From contig BGKB01000057.1 in NCBI GenBank assembly GCA_003116975.1, positions 62,001 through 126,000 on the forward strand: DNA of 64,000 nucleotides, written 5' to 3'. This DNA comes from Aurantiochytrium sp. KH105 (lineage: Eukaryota > Sar > Bigyra > Thraustochytrida > Thraustochytriidae). Under the pieces are notes generated by a model, which saw nothing but the letters and a program-made list of their open reading frames with translations, was not told the origin of the DNA and ran no database searches. Of the stretch, positions 1 through 30,179 are shown one piece after another. Every line of letters starts with the position of its first letter. The first letter of the stretch is position 1. The position numbers were made by a program, and so were the translations under genes.

Positions 1-1256
1 TTGACTTCTTTCATGGCCGGTGAGTTGGGCGCAATATCGAGGCGGAGGAATTGCCGGCGCTTGGGCGGTAGCTGGCGTAGAACGTTGCGCTTTTGGCGGC
101 GCACGAGCAGGCCCTGAAGACGCTCATGCAGCTCCTCGAGGTTTGAGGCGCCGTTGAGGTCCATGCCCCAGGGGCGCCGCGTTGGTTTGCAAAAGCGCCG
201 GGTAAAGGCTGTATACTGTGGGAAGAGGTCTGGCCGAAGCGCGTGGACTTGTGTCCAGAGCTCAATGGGGCGCGCGAGGGCTGGCGTGCCGCTGAGCAAA
301 GCGACGCGACGTGCGGCCTTGAGGACGGGCGCAAGCATTTTCGTGCGCAGAGCAGAGGAGCTCTTGAGGTAGTGACTCTCGTCGACGACAACGACCCCAA
401 ACTTGCGCGCCTCAATGGCGGCGGCCACCTTGCTCCCGCGTGCGAACATGCCATAGGTGATGATGGTGACGGGCTTGTCGAGATCGCCAGGAAAGGAACG
501 CGACTTGACGACGTTAATGTCGCCGGGCTGCAGGCTCGGGGCCCACTGTTCGAGCTCGTCGGCCCAATTCAATTTGACGGACGAAGGGGCCACGATGAGC
601 AGTGGCCACTCGTTGCGAAAGGCGAGAGCAAATCCAATCGCCTGCACAGTTTTACCGAGGCCCATTTCGTCGCCAATGAGCACTCGTCCTTTGCATTGTT
701 GGACCGCAAAGGCGACACCCTGTTTCTGGAAGGGCATGAGCATGTCAACAAAGCGCTGTTCGAGCCCGACGGTCGGGGAGACAAGGGCCTTGGAAGCCTC
801 AGCCGGAGGAAGTAGGCGCGCATCATAGAATCGATCGCGGGCGTCCTCGTTGGTTGCATTTGTTGCTTTGGAAGTGGAGTTGTCGTCATCGACGTCGTCG
901 TCGTCGCTTCGTTTTGCCTTGGTCTTTGCTTTACTTTTGGCGGGCGTTGAGGACGATGCCGCAGAGCTGCGCCCACCGAGACGTTTGAGAACCTCCAGAT
1001 TGTCGCTCATGTGGAGGCCGTCCATGGCGACGCTCTCCATGCGAGCCCATCGCGCTTGCGGAAAGCAGTCGAGGTGGAAAAACCTCGTGCCTGTACGAAA
1101 GGCGCCGCCCACGCGTTGCTGATATGTTTCGCATACGCGCAATTCGTCCTTTTGGATGGGCTTGCCGCACGCACGACCTCGGCATGCACTTCGGCCGCTC
1201 TTGCTGTACTCTACGCGCACGCCGTCGTCTCCCGCATCACCATGTGCCGTGGTCAT
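1..1256 (-). CDS. SMARCAL1-like SNF2 annealing helicase with N-terminal PARP-type zinc finger (3' part outside window)
   Basis: The frame reads from an ATG at 1256 leftward with no stop to the window edge, giving about 418 residues. Residues ~17-62 form a PARP-type zinc finger: a YSKSGRSAC lead-in, a second Cys five residues later, the GKPIQKDELRV segment, then FFHLDC (His-x2-Cys). A Ser/Asp/Lys-rich linker follows. From ~165 on is an SNF2 ATPase lobe with Walker A in GDEMGLGKTVQAI (~193), Walker B/motif II DESHYLKS, and motif III LLSGTP. The stretch through PLLIVAPSSVKLNW and LSGTPALARPIELWTQ closely matches SMARCAL1/HARP, an ATP-dependent DNA-annealing helicase acting at stalled forks. Human SMARCAL1 carries HARP repeats and an RPA-binding motif at its N-terminus; here a nick/break-sensing finger occupies that place. 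The second helicase lobe lies outside the window. The family call is secure; fork-remodelling function is inferred. Confidence 0.88.
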   Translation of the reverse strand, partial: MTTAHGDAGDDGVRVEYSKSGRSACRGRACGKPIQKDELRVCETYQQRVGGAFRTGTRFFHLDCFPQARWARMESVAMDGLHMSDNLEVLKRLGGRSSAASSSTPAKSKAKTKAKRSDDDDVDDDNSTSKATNATNEDARDRFYDARLLPPAEASKALVSPTVGLEQRFVDMLMPFQKQGVAFAVQQCKGRVLIGDEMGLGKTVQAIGFALAFRNEWPLLIVAPSSVKLNWADELEQWAPSLQPGDINVVKSRSFPGDLDKPVTIITYGMFARGSKVAAAIEARKFGVVVVDESHYLKSSSALRTKMLAPVLKAARRVALLSGTPALARPIELWTQVHALRPDLFPQYTAFTRRFCKPTRRPWGMDLNGASNLEELHERLQGLLVRRQKRNVLRQLPPKRRQFLRLDIAPNSPAMKEV

Positions 1257-2554
1257 GGAACCGGCCTGTGCACGAATCTAAATCCGCGGCCACGCCCACG
1301 GTTCTGACGAAGCAACGCGGAGAGCGTGCGGCGGACTCGAGCGAGGTGGTGCTCGTCGGCCAGCCTGCCTCTCGGCCTCTCTGGCGAGCGTGGCGTCGCT
1401 GCCAGTGTCTCGGGTCTCTGTTTGTTCGTTCCCTCGAGCGATCGAAGCACTACTCTCGTTACGGTTAAGTCGCGCAGTCTGAAGGGGCCTAGCCGAGCCT
1501 AGCACGGTCTTAGAGATCATCTGTCTGCATGGCAGGCAGGGTTATTCACGTCTTTTTCTCGCCACCGAGACAGCACAGGAATCGGCATGAGCGAGTTTTG
1601 CATAACGAAAGTTGAGATGTCAATAGTATGCAAGGCAATTTATGCTCTTGTATGCAAGGTATTCTCTGCTCGTGGCGCATTTGACGAGAAGGATTGGTCG
1701 CGTTTCGATCGACATGTACGACAAGGGCGAGAAGAACCATTGCGTACATCACCAGGTCCTATCGTCGTAAAGGTAGGCAGGCAGCCCGTCAAGATAGGTC
1801 AATGGCTCTCATTTTTCTCAACTTGAAGGCAGAGTGGGAACTCCATCTGCCTCATTGATCCAAGAACAAGGTAAAGTTAATATGCTCGCTCCGAGCCCAA
1901 TCTTGTCGCCGCATTTGCGCAAGTTCATGGCGCTCGATCTCTCGAACCCACGGTGGTGTTCATTCAACCTCTGAGCTCCTGCAATGCTCTCCAGCAGCGT
2001 CTTCCCGCTGCTCGGGAGAAAGGATTTGAGGTGAACAGCCAGGCCGAGCTTTGGACAAGCTCGACTGCGGCTGGACTCGGTCCGTCTTGAAGCCTTCTCC
2101 GATCTTCCATGATCTTTCCATTTCTCCGGCCCCAACTGCGCACAGGCTCGGAGCGGCCCGCCGTCTGAGCGCGATCCAGCTTTAGGCAGGCGCGGCCGAG
2201 TTTCTTTCTTGGCGAGTAAAAGCGCAGATGCAGATTGGTTGGTGCAGAGCAAAATCAGACAGAGCACGACAGAACCGAGCAGAGCAGAGCAGAGCAAGCA
2301 AGACAAAACTGAGGTGGGGAGCATCAAGCGCTTCGCCCAAACTAGGTCAGAGTCCAGGTCAGAGTCCAGGCCGAGAGAGGCCGAGGCGAGGCGAGGCGAG
2401 ACGAGCTTCATTTATTCCAAGGTCGACTTTTTCATCGCTCGGTCCAGCCCAAGTTCCTGTCCCATCGCGGTGACCTTGAGCGTGCTCGCCATGGGCCAAT
2501 TTCGGACAAAAGCTGCTTCGCGACCGCGCACTGGCGCACTGGCCGGTGCTGGGC

Positions 2555-18620: not shown

Positions 18621-21600
18621 ATGAAGGCGCTGCGGAGCGCGCTGCTGGCCAAGGGCACCGTGCTGTCGGTGAAGCTGCCCGGGGCGACGCTGCTCCCGGC
18701 GATCCGGGTCCGGGAGACATGCTGGGACGTGCCGAGCCAAAAGGATTTGGAGCGCGCCCTGCGGCTCCTCGAAAGCGGCGCCGACGCCCACGCCCTGGCG
18801 GCCGTGGTTGGCCACGGCGACCCGAGCACCGTCCGCGCCTTCTTGCGCGTCTGCATCGACACAGAAAAGGACGTCAAGCTCCCGCCGACGCTGCTTGACG
18901 CTGACCCGGAAGCACTCTCCGGCGACGACAGGCTCCGCGCCTCAACGCGGCCTTCGGACTTCTTCCGACATCAGTTCACCATTGAAGCGTGCGGAGCCCG
19001 ACGCGAACGCAATGGAGATCTCGTCCCCGTCTTGCCCATCCACTGGGTCGGCCAGGGTTTTCAGAACGGCGCTGCCCTCGATGCAGCCATATCTCAGCTT
19101 GAAGAGGAGCAAGCGGGGAACCTCAAGGACATCCGCGGGCTCATCCGATATGAAAACCTCGCTCGATCGCATAACATCTGGGAGACAAAGGAGGATCTCA
19201 CACGAACTATCCACGCACGGGGGCTCAAGCCCAGCGTGCTCGTTCGGGTTCGCAAGGAAACCCCGCAGACCTCTCTTATCCCCTTTTCTGACGCCAATTG
19301 GGACGCTGTCGATGCCAATTCACATGCCTTCCAAGTGCTCTCGGGCCGCGATGGAAATCTTAGTGGCGACAAGAAGGAGGATCACTCCATTGTTCTCGCT
19401 GTCCACGAGTCGCTCCTTCAGGAGTCCGGGGCGGCCGCAACGTCTGGGCATGCCTCTAGGCACAGCAGCGAGCACACGTCCGTGCTTGAGAAAGAGCCCA
19501 AGCTTGAGCCGATCTCGTCCGTGACACCTCTTCCGCCCGACGCGGACGGCCCGCAACGCGGTGAGAACTTTCTTCCGCCACCGTCGCGGACCATGTTGGA
19601 CATTGAGCTGCCTCTCTCACTCTTGCACAAGTCCATTTTGCGGGGGACCAGCTTTTCCTCTCCTCGCCAGGCAAACTTTGCTGTCGACCAGCTCTTAGAG
19701 ACCAAGACAATCGGCCATCTTGGGGCCTCCGCGACGCACTTGCTTTTGTGGCGGCTCTTTTCATGCGCCTGGCGGGATGTTTGCCCCTACTTTCCACCCG
19801 CGCGGTCGACGACAGTGTTTACCCTGCCTGACCTGCTCGGTCTCAGTCTCGTTTCCTATGTGGACCCTTCGTTCAGCTTGTCTGAAAAGCTCGCGGCTCG
19901 CGCCAAAAAAACTGCGCTCTCTCTTCAGGCCCACGAAGATATCACCTCTGTGCTCTGGCCATGGCGAGGATTTCGCAAGCAGACTCGTGAAAAGACCCTC
20001 GTCGTTGAAGACGCCCCCGACGACGCAGTGGCACAGCTACGAAATACGCTACGTTGTGCCTCGATGGGACCTTTTCCTCTCGCCTCTGCCGCGGACCGCG
20101 ACATGTTTCGCAGATATTTGTCCTGTCTGCAAGAGCCGTCGTGGGCCGCAAAAGTGCAGCCTTTGCCTGCTGCCCGCGTCACCAAGGCCGCTTTGTCAAT
20201 GACTGCGCCCGCGCGCGCTGCCGAGCTCGAGACGATGCAGGCGAGCATGGATGGTCGCTTGAGCGCCAATGTTCTTCTCTTTCTCCAGGCCAGCATGGAC
20301 ACGCCGCCCAAAAACACCCTGCAGCACAGCATCAGGTCTCTGGGGATGCTTGTAGACCGCATTTCGAGCACTTTGAACGTCCGTGCCATCCGCAAACAGC
20401 TTGCAGGTCAAGAGAACGAGGCCGAGCTTTTTCGTATTCAGCAGTTTTTAGGCGCCAAATCCGAAATTCCCGAGTCTTCCGGGAAAACTCACGCAGCCAA
20501 CGGCGACGCGCCTGCCCCCCCAATCAAGCTGCAGGAGACTGTTCATGATACTGTCAAACTCACGCCTCACGAAAGGGTCTTGTCGGCCGTTCTCCACGAC
20601 GTACAGCGTGCTCTGTGGAAGAACACCATGGATCATGCCCCTTCTGTGTGGCGCGACGGTCCGTACGGCATCCATGCTACAGATATGCCCGCGCATGAGC
20701 CATCCAAACATCTCATCGAAAGCATCGCGCCCAGTGCCCGTGCGATGTCGACAGGGCGGGAACCAACCGCGCTTGAAGCCCGAACAGCATTTCTGCAACT
20801 CTTTGGTCGCCAGACAATTCTTCCCGCTGCCAAAGGAGCCGCAAAGGGAGAGACATTTTCCGTCGTGCTTGCTGGTACCACAGAAGAGCCGCTTTTGGTT
20901 CGCCTCGTCGAGCCCAAGGCGGCGAGCTCCATGCAACAACCGAATCGCTTCCTCGATGCAAGCAATCCTCTTGTTGCGGAGGCCCGTTTGCGCCTTTGTG
21001 CTCTCGGCCCGCAGTCTGTCAAGATCGCTTTCCCCCCGCCCCAAGGCTTTCGTTGGATTTGGGAAGACCCGTCCCTTGCAACTCGCCAGCATGCGGTTTC
21101 TATTGTATCGACAGAGGTCCGTCTCGGTGCAGCGTCCACTCGTAAACGAGGGACGCGGCGACAGAAGAGCAAGGCTGGTGCAGATCCTGGGGCATCGGCA
21201 AGCCTTGAATTTTTTGTGAATGGCAAAGCCATTCCTGCATTTGACGCTTCATCATTGCTTGTGCCATGCAACACGCCAGCGGATCAGAAGCCTCTGGGCG
21301 GCGAGTTGAGCGCTCTTGTTTCACGGGCATTCTATGTCTCAACGTCTGCCAAAATCAAGAGCAAAAGGAATGGAAAAGACAAAGGGAAAGCTTCGCGGCG
21401 CCCCGGATCCGGCACTCCGAAAGACTGCCTGGATCTTTTCCGCGATCTGGAGACGGCCGCGCGCGTTGGTCGACAAGGCAACGTAGATGCAATTTACGAC
21501 TGGCATACTGTGCGGGACGCGACGCCAATTTCGGCTCATGTCTTTCGCGACTTGTTGCTCAAGGTCATGATGATGGAGGGAAATACCTTTAGTTTGTCTG

Positions 21601-24389
21601 CGTCCGCGGGCGCCAACTCGCAGCATTGGCAGCAGGACTTTACGAACGAGGGAACGGCGCTCCGTGCCATGTTTGCTCTATGTGCGCTTTACCCCGGCTG
21701 CGTTGAGCGGGTGGCAGAGCATCAATTCCAGACATTCACGCGTTTTCGTGTCTTGAGCAAGAGCAATGTGCAGTACGTGGACTTGATCGAGTCTTTGCGC
21801 AGGCTCGCTTTCCCGCCAGAGATTATTCAAGGCGGCGACGCTGAACAGCTCACGAGTGACGCGAGTGCAAGTGCAAAGTCTGCTGTGGCTGTAACAACAA
21901 AACTCTGGTCCCATCAACAGGAAACGGTGGATAAGGTTACGGGTGGAATTCGAAGCGGCATGCTAGGATTCGCTGACGCCTCGACTGTGGGCGCTGGCAA
22001 GACTCTCTCCGCGCTGGCGTGTATTGCCGGTGCGCAGGATATTATTTCAGGCAAAGGCGAGACACTTCGCGGAAGCCTCGTGCTACTGCCGACCAACGCA
22101 CTGATCTCGGAATGGGCAACACAGATCATGCTGCACACCAAAGGTGTTCACGTCATCGCGCAGGACAAGAGCGGTTTCCTCAAGTCACTTGGCATCTCGA
22201 ATGCAGGAGGGCCAGCGCGCCGCATCGCGCGAGGGCGTCACGTCAAGGTCGACGCGGACAGCATTGTGTTGACAACCCTGGGGCGTGCCCGAGATCATCC
22301 CTTTTCAACCCTTGGGTGGGACCTGGTCATCATCGATGAGTGTGTCTCGGTGCAATCGCAGACCGCGCTGCAGAGCTTCGCGGCGTGGCGCCAAGTCTTG
22401 GCCAGCAATTGTGGCGTCATGATGTTGTCGGCGACCATGTACAGGTCACGAATGGCGGATCTCTTTGTTCTCATCCGCATGTTGCGCAGTCCGTTGCCGC
22501 GCACGCAGCCGTATTTGGCCACTCTCTTGAGCGAGCATGCGATCGTAGCGCTGCCCGAGAACCCACGCAAGTGGGTCATGGAGTTCCGCCCCGTGCATTT
22601 GGAGATGAGCGCGCAGGAGAGATACCGTGCGATTGTTGAGCAGAGCTTCCATGGGAACGGCGTCTCGGACGCTCGGACGCTCTACAAAGACCTCAAGACA
22701 TTTTTGCGTCACAATTACGAGCGATCCGAGGCGGTAGAGTCGATTGCGTCGGAAGTCGCCGCTATGCGCGACCAAGGACGCCGCCCTCTTGTGTTTGCTG
22801 CCAATGAGAACGAGAAGAAGCTCTTGCTCGGCGCGATACCCAACGCGGAGAGTCTTCCCGCCAGTTCCAAGGACCGTGACAAGGTGCTCGTTGTTACCGT
22901 ACGTGAGGGTTCGCATGGGTTGAATCTTCAAGAGCACGCCGATGCCATTGTCACGCGTCCGCAGCCTGGCGACATCATGGAGCAAATGAAAGGCCGCATT
23001 GATCGTCCTGGTCAAAAAATTAAAACTTTGCTCCTTACTATCGTGGTGGCGCATGATACGATCGAGGAAGCTGAGGCCGCAAATATTCGCATTTGCGGCT
23101 CTTTCTTCCGGCAGTACCTGGACCCTCTCTCGCGAACCTTCCAGGAGCGCGCCATGTCATCTGCGGAGTCTGTTTTTGACGCGCAGCGCGCCACCGCATC
23201 ATATTCGCAAGAGAGCAACCTGCGTCCTGCTCGGGGCAAGGCGAAAAGGAGCTCCGTTTCGACCGCATCTTCGACTTCGGCACCGCTCCGGTACCGGTCG
23301 CGATACGAAGGCATCTTGGCGCAAAATTTTCGAGCACACTTGGAAGCATCATTTGCAAGTGACGACGGTGCCTCGGCAGTAGCCTCCGTCTCGACAACGA
23401 CTAGCAGTAGAGGTGGCAGAAAGCGGAAGACTGTAAAAGACAATGATGACGATCTGGAGGAGCAAGGAAGCGATGAAGACTTTGTGGACGAAAGCGAAGC
23501 AAACCCGTCTCCTCCCTCGAAGCGTCGCAGGACAGCAGCCAGAGCTGCCAAGTGCAGAACATTAAATTCGGATTCTGTGGAGGAAAAGAACCTGGAGGAC
23601 GCCGTTGTCAAACCTCGAAAGGCAGGAAAGAAGACCGTGGAAAAAGGCCCTGTTAAGGCAAAGCGTAAAAAGCGGCCACCCGAGGAGGCCTTTCTGGGAA
23701 GCGGTCCACCGCAAGTCATCTCAGACGAGCTCATGGCTCAGGCACTTGCACATTTTGCCAAAAACGATGCCAAGATGGCCAACGTTGTGAACCAGGTTGG
23801 CGCTCCGACGCAGCTCATGGAGATGGTGGGCACTGCAGATCCATTTATGGCACTTACAAGGTCAATTATCTACCAACAAATCTCCACCAAGGCCGGCGCG
23901 AGCATTTTCAAGAAATTCTCGGCGCTCCTCAATGATGCAGTGACCCCTGAAAACGTTCTGGCAATGTCGCAGGAGAAACTGCGTACCGCAGGTCTCAGCG
24001 CGCGCAAAGCCGAGTACGTCCATTGTTTGGCCGCACACTTTCAGGCCGAAAAGTTGTCTCGAGCGCAGCTCGACGCCATGACGGACGATGAGGTCTTTCG
24101 GTCCCTTATTAAAGTCAAGGGCATCGGGCCCTGGAGCATTCACATGTTTTTGCTCTTTTCACTAGGTCGTCCTGACGTGCTACCGTACGGTGATTTGGTG
24201 GTCCGCAAAGGCTTTAAACGGCTTTATCAGTTGTCGAACGGCGAAGAAATTGAAGATACCAAAGTCGTGCGTCTCCCTGACGAGCATGAACTGCTGGAGC
24301 TATCGACGACGTGGAGGCCGTTTCGATCCATTGGAACCTGGCTCATGTGGCACGCTGTCGAATCTGAATCCGCGGTATATACCTTTTAG
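18621..24389 (+). CDS. SNF2-like helicase fused to AlkA/Mag1-type 3-methyladenine DNA glycosylase
   Basis: One uninterrupted 1922-codon frame. Residues 1 to ~1090 match nothing I recognise. A helicase core spans ~1095-1500: TVGAGKTLSAL (Walker A, ~1123), LVIIDECVS (motif II, ~1236), MLSATM (motif III), SHGLNLQEHADAIV, and EQMKGRIDRPGQ (motif VI, ~1455), then TIEEA. The second lobe is of SNF2 type. A charged linker (~1540-1700) has several NLS-like clusters (GGRKRKTVK, PSKRRRTA, KRKKRPP). The final ~215 residues are an HhH-GPD base-excision glycosylase: LTRSIIYQQIS, LRTAGLSARKAEYV, the hairpin VKGIGPWSIHMFLLF, then LPYGDLVVRKG with catalytic Asp1858, and WRPFRSIGTWLMWH. AlkA/Mag1 enzymes excise alkylated purines. 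Both halves keep their catalytic motifs, so an ATP-driven translocase coupled to alkyl-base excision is inferred. The start is the first Met of the frame. Confidence 0.88.
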   Translation: MKALRSALLAKGTVLSVKLPGATLLPAIRVRETCWDVPSQKDLERALRLLESGADAHALAAVVGHGDPSTVRAFLRVCIDTEKDVKLPPTLLDADPEALSGDDRLRASTRPSDFFRHQFTIEACGARRERNGDLVPVLPIHWVGQGFQNGAALDAAISQLEEEQAGNLKDIRGLIRYENLARSHNIWETKEDLTRTIHARGLKPSVLVRVRKETPQTSLIPFSDANWDAVDANSHAFQVLSGRDGNLSGDKKEDHSIVLAVHESLLQESGAAATSGHASRHSSEHTSVLEKEPKLEPISSVTPLPPDADGPQRGENFLPPPSRTMLDIELPLSLLHKSILRGTSFSSPRQANFAVDQLLETKTIGHLGASATHLLLWRLFSCAWRDVCPYFPPARSTTVFTLPDLLGLSLVSYVDPSFSLSEKLAARAKKTALSLQAHEDITSVLWPWRGFRKQTREKTLVVEDAPDDAVAQLRNTLRCASMGPFPLASAADRDMFRRYLSCLQEPSWAAKVQPLPAARVTKAALSMTAPARAAELETMQASMDGRLSANVLLFLQASMDTPPKNTLQHSIRSLGMLVDRISSTLNVRAIRKQLAGQENEAELFRIQQFLGAKSEIPESSGKTHAANGDAPAPPIKLQETVHDTVKLTPHERVLSAVLHDVQRALWKNTMDHAPSVWRDGPYGIHATDMPAHEPSKHLIESIAPSARAMSTGREPTALEARTAFLQLFGRQTILPAAKGAAKGETFSVVLAGTTEEPLLVRLVEPKAASSMQQPNRFLDASNPLVAEARLRLCALGPQSVKIAFPPPQGFRWIWEDPSLATRQHAVSIVSTEVRLGAASTRKRGTRRQKSKAGADPGASASLEFFVNGKAIPAFDASSLLVPCNTPADQKPLGGELSALVSRAFYVSTSAKIKSKRNGKDKGKASRRPGSGTPKDCLDLFRDLETAARVGRQGNVDAIYDWHTVRDATPISAHVFRDLLLKVMMMEGNTFSLSASAGANSQHWQQDFTNEGTALRAMFALCALYPGCVERVAEHQFQTFTRFRVLSKSNVQYVDLIESLRRLAFPPEIIQGGDAEQLTSDASASAKSAVAVTTKLWSHQQETVDKVTGGIRSGMLGFADASTVGAGKTLSALACIAGAQDIISGKGETLRGSLVLLPTNALISEWATQIMLHTKGVHVIAQDKSGFLKSLGISNAGGPARRIARGRHVKVDADSIVLTTLGRARDHPFSTLGWDLVIIDECVSVQSQTALQSFAAWRQVLASNCGVMMLSATMYRSRMADLFVLIRMLRSPLPRTQPYLATLLSEHAIVALPENPRKWVMEFRPVHLEMSAQERYRAIVEQSFHGNGVSDARTLYKDLKTFLRHNYERSEAVESIASEVAAMRDQGRRPLVFAANENEKKLLLGAIPNAESLPASSKDRDKVLVVTVREGSHGLNLQEHADAIVTRPQPGDIMEQMKGRIDRPGQKIKTLLLTIVVAHDTIEEAEAANIRICGSFFRQYLDPLSRTFQERAMSSAESVFDAQRATASYSQESNLRPARGKAKRSSVSTASSTSAPLRYRSRYEGILAQNFRAHLEASFASDDGASAVASVSTTTSSRGGRKRKTVKDNDDDLEEQGSDEDFVDESEANPSPPSKRRRTAARAAKCRTLNSDSVEEKNLEDAVVKPRKAGKKTVEKGPVKAKRKKRPPEEAFLGSGPPQVISDELMAQALAHFAKNDAKMANVVNQVGAPTQLMEMVGTADPFMALTRSIIYQQISTKAGASIFKKFSALLNDAVTPENVLAMSQEKLRTAGLSARKAEYVHCLAAHFQAEKLSRAQLDAMTDDEVFRSLIKVKGIGPWSIHMFLLFSLGRPDVLPYGDLVVRKGFKRLYQLSNGEEIEDTKVVRLPDEHELLELSTTWRPFRSIGTWLMWHAVESESAVYTF

Positions 24390-26396
24390 CAGAGCCACTA
24401 TGGCGCTGGAACAGAATACAATTCCACTAAGCACCAAAGCGATAATGTCATAGTTGAGGCTTCGAAAGAATGGCCATGTCTCCCTTTTGCTGCGCAAGAG
24501 GCCCTGAGGAGGGACTTGCGCCACAAACTCGATTACATCTCCCGCCAGACGGCGCCCATTGAGATGAAGAAAAAGCTTGCTTGCGCGCTCGAGGGTAGCG
24601 AAATCATACTTGCGACGGAGCGCGTCTTCGACATCTGCCCTTGTCGCTGCAATATCTCGATGGATCGACGTACCGACCCCTAGGTCTGCCACACGGGCAG
24701 CTACGTCGAATTGATCAGCAAACAGAGGGAGACACACGAGAGGTGTTTGAGCACGAATGCTTTCCTGCGCAATGGAAAGGCCACAGTACGAGATTGTAGC
24801 TACAATTGCCTCGTGCGCGAGAAGTTCTGTCAGAGGCAAGAAGTCCGTCTGTTCGTGAACAAGAAGATGACTCGGCCCTGGAGCACTTGCGTCTTCAACC
24901 GACTCACGCCTTGCAACCGGACATATTCGGTCGCGCCATTCCTGCGCGGGAGGAATTTCATCTTGCCCCGAGCTCTTTGCCTCGCAAAACTCGATAAAGG
25001 AGGCAACAAGGTCATGTTGCGCCCCGTCGTGCTTTCTCTGGGTCGGATGAATCTGCGATACATACGAGAGAAGATGATGAGCATCCATCTCAAGGGCACC
25101 GATCGACTCTCGACTCTTGTCAGAAGAAACGACCCAGAGTACTGCATAGTTGCGCGTGCCTTGCAGGATTGCCTCAAGGAGCTCTGGACTCACGACCCCA
25201 ATGGATCCTAGGACTACAGCCGCCACCGGGCGTGACGCTTTTGCCTGAGCTTGCAGCCAATGCCGCGTGGCGAGATGGTGGCGTCGACTTGGATCTGGAA
25301 GTGGGCCTTCATAAGTAGGCCTTTGCAGTACGCCCACAAAGTGTACAGTTGGCTCCAGGAGCCGGGGGTATTCGAAGCCAATAACCGTGTTCACGAGCAT
25401 ATGGCGACCCTGGAAGATGGTGTGCTGCGCATCGAGGGATGGCAACCCAATATTCTCGTTGAGCTGGTTGAGAAGAACAAAGTCTGGCGTTAGCGCAATT
25501 GCCATAAGCCGTGGGTAAACGACATTAATGCAACGGTCCAGAAACCCCATGTTTCTGGAAAACCCGGATCCCCATCCGGGAAGATGCCGTGATGCGCTCT
25601 GGTTCGGATCTCCAAAAGAAAAGTAAAGCGTTGGGCTGTTGAGCACCACAGGGATATGGAATCTATCAGCCATCTCTGCAGCCCCAATGGCCCCCACATC
25701 TGCTACAATTACGTGTGGAGCCCAACGATCCGGATTGCCTTGCGCAAACGGGTACGGTTGGATTGCTTCCTCTGGCTCCGCAAGATCGCTGTGAAATGGA
25801 TCTCTAATATTGCAATTGATCTTGGCCGTTGTGCTCGCAGCGTGCAAGAATTTGCAGAGCCGCGAGGCTGTACGTGAGGCTTGGCCAAGGTAAAGGTCTC
25901 GGAGGACACCCCAGATGCCGTGCAAGAGGGCGGAGCTGTCAACAACAGAGTACAAATGCTTGCGCACTGCCGATCGCCCATGTAGTAGGCCACCGAGCGA
26001 GACGAGGCTCCCTCGTGCGCAATGAGCCGGCCCCCTGCAGCACGGAGAGCTCGCGTTGGACGCGGCACAGCGATGCTCTGCGAACCAGGGAATTCCTTCA
26101 TCTTGAATGGCAACACGTACGTCGTGGCCACGTTGTAAGAGCTCGTCTGCAAGTTCGAACATTGGCATTGCGTGGCCTCGAAACGCCATGGACACTACGA
26201 GCACGCGCAGTGGTTCGCCGCGTCCCGGCCAAGGTCCTCTTCTCTTGCCGCCATCTTCATGTCCGGCGCGAGGCTGCCTTTCTGGCCCCTGCTCTTGCTG
26301 CTGCTGCTGCTGCGAGCCCGCTCGTGTCCCTGCGACTGTCAGTAGTGCGAGCAGCCAAAGATAGAGCACCCCGCGCCGTGCGACAGAGCGCCGCAT
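24300..26396 (-). CDS. UDP-glycosyltransferase (GT1/UGT-like), type I membrane protein
   Basis: A 698-residue protein from the ATG at 26396, chosen because it opens with a signal peptide (MRRSVARRG then a Leu/Ala-rich core). A poly-Gln stretch follows, then the N-terminal UGT pattern VLVVSMAFRGHAMPMFELAD. The nucleotide-binding region is at about residues 520-570: VHEQTDFLPLTELLAHEAIV, a degenerate ISYCG where the family has a His-Gly-Gly/Cys-Gly motif, then PLVCLPLFADQFDVAARV and LGVG. A single transmembrane helix (IIALVLSGIVFCSSAIVAL) and a short basic tail close the protein, as in animal ER UGTs. The last 30 codons lie antisense to the end of the helicase-glycosylase gene. The acceptor is unknown and the altered motif leaves activity open. 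Confidence 0.78.
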   Translation of the reverse strand: MRRSVARRGVLYLWLLALLTVAGTRAGSQQQQQQEQGPERQPRAGHEDGGKRRGPWPGRGEPLRVLVVSMAFRGHAMPMFELADELLQRGHDVRVAIQDEGIPWFAEHRCAASNASSPCCRGPAHCARGSLVSLGGLLHGRSAVRKHLYSVVDSSALLHGIWGVLRDLYLGQASRTASRLCKFLHAASTTAKINCNIRDPFHSDLAEPEEAIQPYPFAQGNPDRWAPHVIVADVGAIGAAEMADRFHIPVVLNSPTLYFSFGDPNQSASRHLPGWGSGFSRNMGFLDRCINVVYPRLMAIALTPDFVLLNQLNENIGLPSLDAQHTIFQGRHMLVNTVIGFEYPRLLEPTVHFVGVLQRPTYEGPLPDPSRRHHLATRHWLQAQAKASRPVAAVVLGSIGVVSPELLEAILQGTRNYAVLWVVSSDKSRESIGALEMDAHHLLSYVSQIHPTQRKHDGAQHDLVASFIEFCEAKSSGQDEIPPAQEWRDRICPVARRESVEDASAPGPSHLLVHEQTDFLPLTELLAHEAIVATISYCGLSIAQESIRAQTPLVCLPLFADQFDVAARVADLGVGTSIHRDIAATRADVEDALRRKYDFATLERASKLFLHLNGRRLAGDVIEFVAQVPPQGLLRSKRETWPFFRSLNYDIIALVLSGIVFCSSAIVALLKGIYRGFRFDSVPHEPGSNGSKRPPRRR

Positions 26397-28070: not shown

Positions 28071-30179
28071 TTAAAGGGCCGTGCGCATCTTTTTGCGAGA
28101 AGATCGGCGCAAAGGCACTTCCGGCGACGCAACGTCAGTTGCTTGACTAGATCGCTTGAGCCAGTTCTGCGAAGTCGCGCCTCTTGGAGAGCCATCGCCT
28201 TCATCTTGGTCCTCAAACTCGACTTTTAGTGGAACTGGGGAAGTTGCCTCTTTGACGATAATGTTTCGCTGCAATTCTTTGCTCTCAATATTTTCTTGCG
28301 CCCTCAGCACGCCATATTCGGGCTTTGGAGCTATGTAGGCGAGAAGTGTGGAATTCGGGTAGAAGGAACAGGCCTCTTGAAACCACGGGCTAGCAAGACT
28401 CACATTGAGTGCGCTTTCATCTGAAAGATTGCTTGCGCCCTCGAATTTATGTTGATGTAAAGCGATTTGGAAGGCCTTCAAAAGCTTGCAAAACCTGGCA
28501 GGTAGAAAGAGCTGACGCTTGGCGCGTGTGACAGCCACATACCAGATGTTGAGATCGTCAGACCAATGCGGAAGAGCAAAGGATGCCATGGGCATTGATG
28601 GAGCAAATGCAGAGGCTCTATCGAACTGGGGGTTACTCAATCCGCCTTCAAAATTAAAAGTCGCGAGCTTGCACAGATCGTTGCACATAACCACAGTATC
28701 CCATTCTTGCCCCTTTGCCGCGTGTACGGTCGTTAGGAGTATGTCGGCCACACCTGGGGAAACGTTGCTGTCGATCACATACTTGCGAAAATCCTCAAGA
28801 TCATGGCGCGCGTTCTCCTGTCTTTCCTCCACCAGCATCACCGCGGTGATGAATTTGCTGAGACTGCGCTCGTAGACTTCGTTCTTGAAGGTGTCCCAGT
28901 CAAGCGTTCGGTCGCGAAATTCGTAGGAGTCAATCCTGGTGATTTCGCCTTGCCACAGTTTAATGACTTCATCAATGACCTTGAGCGTGCTTAGCCACCT
29001 CTGTTTGCCAGAGTGCTCGCCAGATCCATTGATGGCGAACTTGGGAAGTGGTATGCCACGCGCTCTTGCGTTTACTATGATTTGGAGGGCCTCCGTCAAC
29101 AAGGTAATGTTCGTGAATGCGATGAGAGTGAAGGGCATTCTCACGTTGATGTCGTTCATTCCAACGTCGACAGTACCAGGATGCGCTGCGCCACCTGTCA
29201 CGCGATAGGGTTTCCATTCTTTAGGCGACACCTTTTCCTTGACGAAGAGGAGAAGATTTGCGGCGGAAGCAATGTTTTGTCCGAATCGAAAGCTCTTGGT
29301 GAGGCTGAAATCAGAGCAATCTCGAATTTCCATGAGGAACTTGGACTTGGCGCCGCGGAAACCGTATATAGTCTGAGCCGCGTCCCCGACAAAGACGAGA
29401 ATTTTGCCACGCTTGTTTTGTAGAACCCACTTGATTTGAGAGGCTGTGCAGTCCTGCGATTCGTCGATGAGAATGACGGATCCTGGAATCGGCGCCCGTC
29501 GGAGCTCAGCTTCCTTCATGAGCACGTCATAGGTCGTAAATCCTCCGGCCGAATTTCCATCGGGATCGGGCTTGAGTAAGGCGTACACTTCGCGGGCCGC
29601 CCTGGTGTAAAAGTCTCCGACGTCTGATGGTAGGTGGTCCTCTTTTTGGTGGTGCAGCTGCGCGGGATAGTAGGTGTTGTATTTACTTTGGGGGCTGAGA
29701 CCATTTGCCAGAGAGTCGGTACTAGCCGTGAAGCGGTCGAGAGTTTTCCGTATGAAAAATGCAAGTTTTACCTTCTCCGAGGCAAGCAAGATGGATTGAC
29801 TGCTGTCCAACGTTCTGAGCATGTGCGCAATATCCTGTCTGAAATTTTTCCGAATGAGCGATTCCACCTTGGTCTCCGATTCGATGTTGAGATTGTGTGA
29901 GAGCTCAAGGCTGGAGATGGCCTGTGAATGGAGCGTGCGGCACTCCACCTTTGAGGGAAGCCGTGCCGCGCCATCAGAAGCTGCGGCTCTGTTGAAGGTG
30001 AGATACGTAATGTCTTGATGCCCCTTCTGGAGCAGGTGTTCGGCCAGAGCCTCCAGGGTGGTGGTCTTGCCAGTCCCGGCCGCAGCTGTCACGCGCAGCA
30101 CGAGGCCCTCGGCAGGCACATCCTCCGGACGCCGCGTCGCGCCCAAGATGTCGCGTTGCTCCTGCGTAAGCGCTATCAT
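28071..30179 (-). CDS. UvrD-family (SF1A) DNA helicase, FBH1-like
   Basis: A 702-residue protein from the ATG at 30179. The frame extends to 30428, but helicase homology begins at this Met with the Q-motif LTQEQRDIL. Motifs follow in order: VTAAAGTGKTTTLEAL (Walker A, Lys38), YLTFNRAAA (Ia), ILIDESQDC (II), LVFVGDAAQTIYGFRGAKS (III), TTVHAAKGQEWDTVV (V) and WYVAVTRAKRQLF (VI). The ESQDCT and GDAAQTIYGFRGA wording is closest to F-box DNA helicase 1, an anti-recombinase that removes Rad51. No F-box precedes the helicase core. The C-terminus is basic (RRSSRKKMR), as in a nuclear protein. Helicase activity is expected; the FBH1 role is inferred. Confidence 0.85.
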   Translation of the reverse strand: MIALTQEQRDILGATRRPEDVPAEGLVLRVTAAAGTGKTTTLEALAEHLLQKGHQDITYLTFNRAAASDGAARLPSKVECRTLHSQAISSLELSHNLNIESETKVESLIRKNFRQDIAHMLRTLDSSQSILLASEKVKLAFFIRKTLDRFTASTDSLANGLSPQSKYNTYYPAQLHHQKEDHLPSDVGDFYTRAAREVYALLKPDPDGNSAGGFTTYDVLMKEAELRRAPIPGSVILIDESQDCTASQIKWVLQNKRGKILVFVGDAAQTIYGFRGAKSKFLMEIRDCSDFSLTKSFRFGQNIASAANLLLFVKEKVSPKEWKPYRVTGGAAHPGTVDVGMNDINVRMPFTLIAFTNITLLTEALQIIVNARARGIPLPKFAINGSGEHSGKQRWLSTLKVIDEVIKLWQGEITRIDSYEFRDRTLDWDTFKNEVYERSLSKFITAVMLVEERQENARHDLEDFRKYVIDSNVSPGVADILLTTVHAAKGQEWDTVVMCNDLCKLATFNFEGGLSNPQFDRASAFAPSMPMASFALPHWSDDLNIWYVAVTRAKRQLFLPARFCKLLKAFQIALHQHKFEGASNLSDESALNVSLASPWFQEACSFYPNSTLLAYIAPKPEYGVLRAQENIESKELQRNIIVKEATSPVPLKVEFEDQDEGDGSPRGATSQNWLKRSSQATDVASPEVPLRRSSRKKMRTAL

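Follow-up and report, generated by a model that had tools for sequence, protein, structure and literature searches.

Does a single open reading frame of the thraustochytrid Aurantiochytrium sp. KH105 place a DNA motor and a DNA glycosylase on the same protein chain, and could the two act together? These are tasks that a cell usually divides between different proteins. A first-pass annotation of the window (the whole stretch of DNA analysed here, 64,000 nucleotides of contig BGKB01000057.1) had reported SNF2 motifs and an AlkA/Mag1 domain in one frame, and we found every motif where it had been placed (Table 1). From the N to the C terminus, the predicted protein carries an N-terminal region, a SNF2-like core, a basic linker and a HhH-GPD glycosylase domain. 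Our preferred reading, to which we give a probability of roughly 0.55, is that one protein would combine a divergent SNF2-like translocase of double-stranded DNA, a flexible basic tether and a monofunctional AlkA2/Mag1-type glycosylase that would excise N-alkylated purines.

Table 1. Position of the fusion gene and its features in the window.
Feature	Position	Strand	Description
Fusion gene	18621..24389	+	Single open reading frame, 1922 aa, without internal stop
N-terminal region	18621..21890	+	Residues 1-1090, without recognised domain
SNF2-like ATPase core	21891..23180	+	Residues about 1090-1520
Motif I, GAGKT	21990-22004	+	Residues 1124-1128, SNF2-like core
Motif II, IIDEC	22329-22343	+	Residues 1237-1241, SNF2-like core
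Motif III, LSAT	22425-22436	+	Residues 1269-1272, SNF2-like core
Motif V, GSHGLNLQ	22908-22931	+	Residues 1430-1437, SNF2-like core
Motif VI, EQMKGRIDRPGQ	22980-23015	+	Residues 1454-1465, SNF2-like core
Linker	23181..23732	+	Residues 1521-1704 (~185), basic NLS-like clusters
AlkA/Mag-type HhH-GPD domain	23733..24386	+	Residues about 1700-1922
Hairpin, KGIGPW	24117-24134	+	Residues 1833-1838, HhH-GPD domain
Asp1858 within YGDLVV	24186-24203	+	HhH-GPD domain

In the genome assembly (76.0 Mb, 367 contigs), PfaA-like pieces scored 930 and 456 bits, below the model's cut-off of 1010 bits, and the model also responds in 11 of 14 control genomes, so this marker is only consistent with a labyrinthulomycete. 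Searching the assembly, we found a second copy of the fusion on contig C77. Its protein is 97% identical and also 1922 aa long, with no indels and an identical junction, and the two genes differ at 185 of 5766 bases. The two genes probably represent haplotypes or homeologues, because their neighbourhood aligns in four segments at 91–96% identity, one of which includes the fusion gene. As the same junction occurs on two contigs, an assembly error at 23300–23750, which the first-pass annotation had named as a possible source of a false fusion, is unlikely.

Comparison of the copies showed strong suppression of amino-acid change in the core, the glycosylase domain and the N-terminus, but not in the linker. 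The dN/dS ratio was 0.09 for residues 1–550 and 0.175 for residues 551–1090 (Fisher p < 1e-9 for each), 0.03 for the core (residues 1091–1520; p about 1e-11) and 0 for the glycosylase domain (residues 1701–1922; no nonsynonymous and 15 synonymous changes; p about 2e-10). For linker residues 1521–1700 it was 0.67 (22 nonsynonymous and 11 synonymous changes), a value that neutral evolution fits (p = 0.30).

The N-terminus, about 1090 residues for which the first-pass annotation had recognised nothing, stayed unmatched in Pfam and the PDB. Residues 1–1087, searched against Pfam as four overlapping pieces, gave nothing above noise (best E 0.08), residues 1–1090 had no match among PDB sequences at E ≤ 10, and the one PHROG match that reaches this region starts only at residue 976. 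Within its own genome the whole protein matched its two copies only (E ≤ 0.001). An AlphaFold2 model of residues 1–1200 made from the single sequence was uninformative (mean pLDDT 35.3). The clear suppression of amino-acid change nevertheless suggests that the N-terminus is probably functional.

The identity of the motor was assessed by profile, motif and structure searches. Pfam SNF2-rel_dom scored 24.6 bits against the whole protein; a segment-by-segment search, as proposed in the first-pass annotation, raised residues 960–1520 to 27.4 bits, above the cut-off of 24.9. Motifs I, II, III, V and VI occur in order, second lobe included, and were aligned with seven SNF2-like frames from IMG/VR; motif VI reads QMKGRIDRPGQ in the fusion versus QAEDRAHRIGQ in the protein of locus L082, described below. 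No Helicase_C match was obtained at E ≤ 10 with the whole protein or its pieces, which reflects a profile threshold and is not by itself a defining feature; for this reason we name the core SNF2-like and not a firm SNF2 member. PF00176 matched 56 times in the genome, in part with several pieces of one gene, and the fusion copies scored lowest (28.4 and 28.2 bits). With phmmer, residues 960–1520 had no match at E ≤ 1 among 261 frames of 35 own-genome loci (30 from the PF00176 search and 5 regions).

An AlphaFold2 model of residues 1060–1520, built on the alignment of the seven IMG/VR frames, had low confidence (mean pLDDT 47.8), with first-lobe blocks mostly at 50–80 and a poor second lobe. Foldseek placed ALC1 at the best E value (1.4e-8) and an archaeal SWI2/SNF2 core at 4.1e-8; DDM1 and INO80 were also at or near the top, and ZorD was sixth. 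TM-scores were about 0.3, with large rmsd. Most of the 50 matches listed were SNF2 proteins, and two XPB structures were among the 50. This fold result is not independent, because the alignment behind the model contained SNF2-like sequences. Taken together, the core is best described as a putative, divergent SNF2-like ATPase outside any named subfamily, its full SNF2 membership not being firm. SNF2 proteins are mostly translocases of double-stranded DNA and not strand-separating helicases. Of the earlier helicase label we thus keep the motor motifs and prefer translocase to helicase; for the same reason, remodeler-assisted repair or the kinetoplastid protein JBP2 offers a closer model than the ASCC3/ALKBH3 pair originally suggested.

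Matches to other profile collections were read as common SNF2 or HhH motifs. PHROG 62 matched the whole protein at 63.8 bits over residues 976–1484, starting slightly before the core, and PHROG 23807 at 20 bits; PHROG 62 is non-specific, since it also recognised other SNF2 genes of this genome at 5 places (with 3 of 112 candidates scored) and matched 14 of 14 control genomes. Six NCBIfam families, all far below their cut-offs, and 11 PADLOC families (best 1.8e-6) matched the whole protein as well.

We also considered whether the motor came from viruses or has relatives there. Records very close to the window were possibly excluded from the phage, viral and genome_contigs scans, in which tblastn of residues 960–1520 gave no match at 1e-5 in 50,697 phage records, IMG/VR scans matched 7 stretches with the helicase, 9 with the glycosylase domain and 1 with the N-terminus, and the helicase matched 10 stretches of genome_contigs; confirmation failed for all of these. 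Two longer patterns found no stretch. The GRIDRPGQ pattern found 26 IMG/VR stretches comprising 1871 frames, six of which matched the helicase by phmmer at E ≤ 1 (best 1e-5); as these matches span motifs V–VI, the six are distant SNF2-like proteins at most. A viral connection was rejected, no relative being confirmed in the phage records or IMG/VR.

The glycosylase domain was recognised above its cut-off. Pfam HhH-GPD matched at 60 bits in the whole protein (residues 1747–1874) and, in the segment-wise search, at 65.1 bits for the domain alone (cut-off 26.2); the hairpin and Asp1858, which the first-pass annotation had named in a complete domain, were both located. Five solved AlkA2/Mag chains matched at E 4e-27 to 4e-22, and two archaeal chains at 2e-9; the structures 4b21 and 4hsb of Schizosaccharomyces pombe Mag2 are among the matches. 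The domain is 30–39% identical to the four structure-derived sequences aligned with it, and the catalytic Asp column is invariant in all five aligned sequences. By sequence it is an ordinary AlkA2/Mag-type domain. Its hairpin reads GIGPW versus GVGPK in the own-genome genes read as OGG1 and NTH1, and a Trp in place of their Lys argues against AP-lyase activity, so that the sequence points to a monofunctional glycosylase.

Such a domain might nevertheless bind without cutting, as has been proposed for S. pombe Mag2, and SNF2 proteins such as HLTF, ZRANB3 and ALC1 work at forks or damaged chromatin. By these precedents, the domain would mark alkylated or abasic sites and recruit the motor, which would remodel forks or clear nucleosomes. 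The match to both Mag2 structures is in keeping with this, as is a Ser common to the fusion and Mag2 at the position of a His in S. pombe Mag1 (QQLH), but the same Ser occurs in 2h56 and 2yg8, both of which are named glycosylases. Moreover, QQ, K and GIGPW are retained in the fusion, the corresponding Mag2 residues being QK, A and GVKRW, and the complete lack of nonsynonymous change in the domain between the copies also speaks against it. We consider a non-cutting domain unlikely and retain an excising glycosylase as the preferred reading. S. pombe Mag1 and Mag2 are both treated in the available text of PMC8620282.

At least 595 relatives of the glycosylase domain were found in genome_contigs, and the best 80 (32–42% identity) were kept. 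In none of these 80 bacterial or archaeal loci (the best 80 of at least 595; 3.4 to 10.7 kb each) did a SNF2-like frame of at least 150 aa lie beside the AlkA2 relative, while, as a control, the profile recovered 33 of 35 own-genome loci and a second query recovered 29 of the 35, including the locus from which it came. An adjoining SNF2 gene as the sign of a functional link in bacteria was thus rejected for the best loci. Stop-to-stop frames longer than 400 aa occurred at five of the best 80 loci. One of them, L109:4416-5681 from a Candidatus Schekmanbacteria MAG, unites MGMT (PF01035) and an AlkA2-type HhH-GPD domain in one protein; another, L098, has HhH-GPD only by Pfam, and the other three look by eye like read-through. 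In a 40-row tree (four structures, the fusion and 35 of the best 80 loci, handpicked for spread), the fusion fell among bacterial and archaeal sequences without a resolved sister. Good support was limited to 7 of the 37 inner branches, and the bootstrap had not converged.

Whether motor and glycosylase leave the ribosome as one product depends on the linker. Its changes fall on the three codon positions 13, 9 and 11 times (residues 1521–1704), without position bias, and one of its antisense frames is likewise open. Two products could be imagined if the linker were a gene boundary or contained an intron or an internal promoter, and its apparently neutral changes would suit such an arrangement. 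In-frame Met is absent between residues 1512 and 1705; a separately made glycosylase would thus need Met1705 as its start, which lies at the domain edge, immediately before the homologous part. The linker also contains 13 acceptor-like YAG sites, but no donor-like GT[AG]AG site, a pattern that leaves room for other GT donors. Against two products, all 180 linker codons are open in both copies, with no indels where 4.6 would be expected in 540 bases (P about 0.01, from 18 gap runs in 2133 aligned bases of two nearby noncoding stretches), and residues 1661–1704 have two synonymous and no nonsynonymous changes, numbers too small for a test. Because selection on the linker protein is not detectable, the case for a single transcript rests on the open frame and the absent indels. 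We judge that the fusion is likely made as one product and that separate products are quite improbable.

To place the fusion among the repair genes of its genome, we searched exon by exon, a procedure that split genes may escape. HhH-GPD was found at eight places, each above the cut-off. The fusion copies account for two of these and are the only AlkA/Mag-type members; the other six were read by eye as MUTYH, NTH1 and OGG1, two copies each. Each copy of the presumed NTH1 gene (L009 and L010) is adjoined by an endonuclease V-like frame, named by eye. The exon-by-exon search found no place for AAG (PF02245) or AlkD (PF08713). Tag (PF03352) matched at four places, which we read from the scores as two genes in two copies, AlkB-like PF13532 at 11 places (9 over the cut-off) and MGMT-like PF01035 at four. 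Given these matches, the fusion is not the sole route of alkylation repair, and its substrate may differ from 3-methyladenine.

This inventory bears on two further explanations. The two parts could share a chain neutrally and work independently, as a long linker without detectable selection on its sequence would allow; the junction is, however, kept in both copies, and the exon-by-exon HhH-GPD search found no separate AlkA-type gene, and we regard a neutral fusion as having little going for it. Alternatively, motor and glycosylase might excise a modified base put into the DNA by the cell itself. To our knowledge, no programmed base of this kind is known in this organism, and the ordinary AlkA2/Mag type of the domain also speaks against such an eraser. 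On the other side, Tag-type genes (four places) could already handle 3-methyladenine, and the protein could be directed to its sites by its long N-terminus, which is under selection. The logic would be that of JBP2 in the opposite direction, and JBP2, in the available text of PMC11065753, does unite SNF2 with a base-modifying enzyme. An eraser seems to us a distant prospect, and repair of alkylated purines remains our preferred reading.

Other genes of the region were also recorded. A frame at the start of the window (1-1277, minus strand; L082:772-4278), cut by the window start, encodes zf-PARP, SNF2 with Helicase_C and a C-terminal HNH domain, and we take it to be ZRANB3-like. It lies about 17 kb upstream of the fusion and has a matching SNF2 place on C77 with equal frame length. 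A UDP-glycosyltransferase-like frame (24300-26396, minus strand) meets the fusion tail to tail and shares its final 90 bases (24300-24389) in both copies. With a UvrD-type helicase gene at 28071-30179 (minus strand), the fusion and the SNF2–HNH frame make three helicase-type genes in about 30 kb. Elsewhere, a SNF2 frame of 609 aa occurs in L083 (G000:C168:49000-53000), whose sequence has a viral look by eye.

How would the preferred reading work? The nuclear-localisation clusters of the first-pass annotation are present, as pattern matches only, and the protein would be nuclear. The motor would move along or remodel DNA, for example nucleosomal DNA, clearing or scanning it, and the tethered glycosylase would thereby gain access to N-alkylated purines, flip them out and excise them; an AP endonuclease would then act on the abasic site. 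Targeting or regulation would be the task of the unmatched N-terminus. Joint action of motor and glycosylase on alkylated purines can fairly be inferred from the two domains. A bolder proposal, a base-excision machine with its own chromatin motor, in which translocation would deliver the glycosylase to lesions or to a programmed base beyond the reach of stand-alone enzymes and the N-terminus would be a new targeting module, is tentative and in our view rather doubtful. Remodelers are described, in the available text of PMC13277549, as aiding base excision repair in chromatin by a mode of action that is still quite poorly understood. A motor and a glycosylase on a single chain would make such coupling directly testable, with and without ATP, on nucleosomes.

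In the open-licence literature, searched by titles and the beginnings of abstracts, we found no description of a SNF2–AlkA fusion, and the available part of PMC10140301 mentions none. What appears new is the combination of two known domain families in an order that we found described nowhere in that literature, although public genomes may already carry an annotation of the gene. The fusion also flags about 1090 residues under selection without a known domain.

Compared with known systems, the fusion shares with AlkA2/Mag1-type glycosylases (2h56, 2yg8, 3s6i) the HhH-GPD domain, the GIGxW hairpin and the catalytic Asp; those enzymes are small (five chains of 217–233 aa), whereas here the domain ends a protein of 1922 residues. 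The bacterial protein of L109 joins an AlkA-type glycosylase to another alkylation-repair domain, MGMT, and, unlike the fusion, has no motor. In the ZRANB3-like SNF2–HNH protein, as in the fusion, a SNF2 motor is joined to a domain that cuts DNA, but that domain is an HNH nuclease and the motor a canonical SNF2 of 120 bits, against a glycosylase and 24.6–28.4 bits in the fusion. The nearest precedent appears to be JBP2 of kinetoplastids, which carries a SWI2/SNF2 domain and a thymidine hydroxylase in one protein, according to the available text of PMC11065753. The likeness is one of logic only. The fusion protein has no Pfam match to the TET/JBP oxygenase domain, and the order is reversed: JBP2 has its hydroxylase at the N terminus and SNF2 at the C terminus, while in the fusion the SNF2-like core comes first and the glycosylase after it. 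The glycosylase would then join the JBP2 hydroxylase as a base-acting enzyme fused to a SNF2-type motor.
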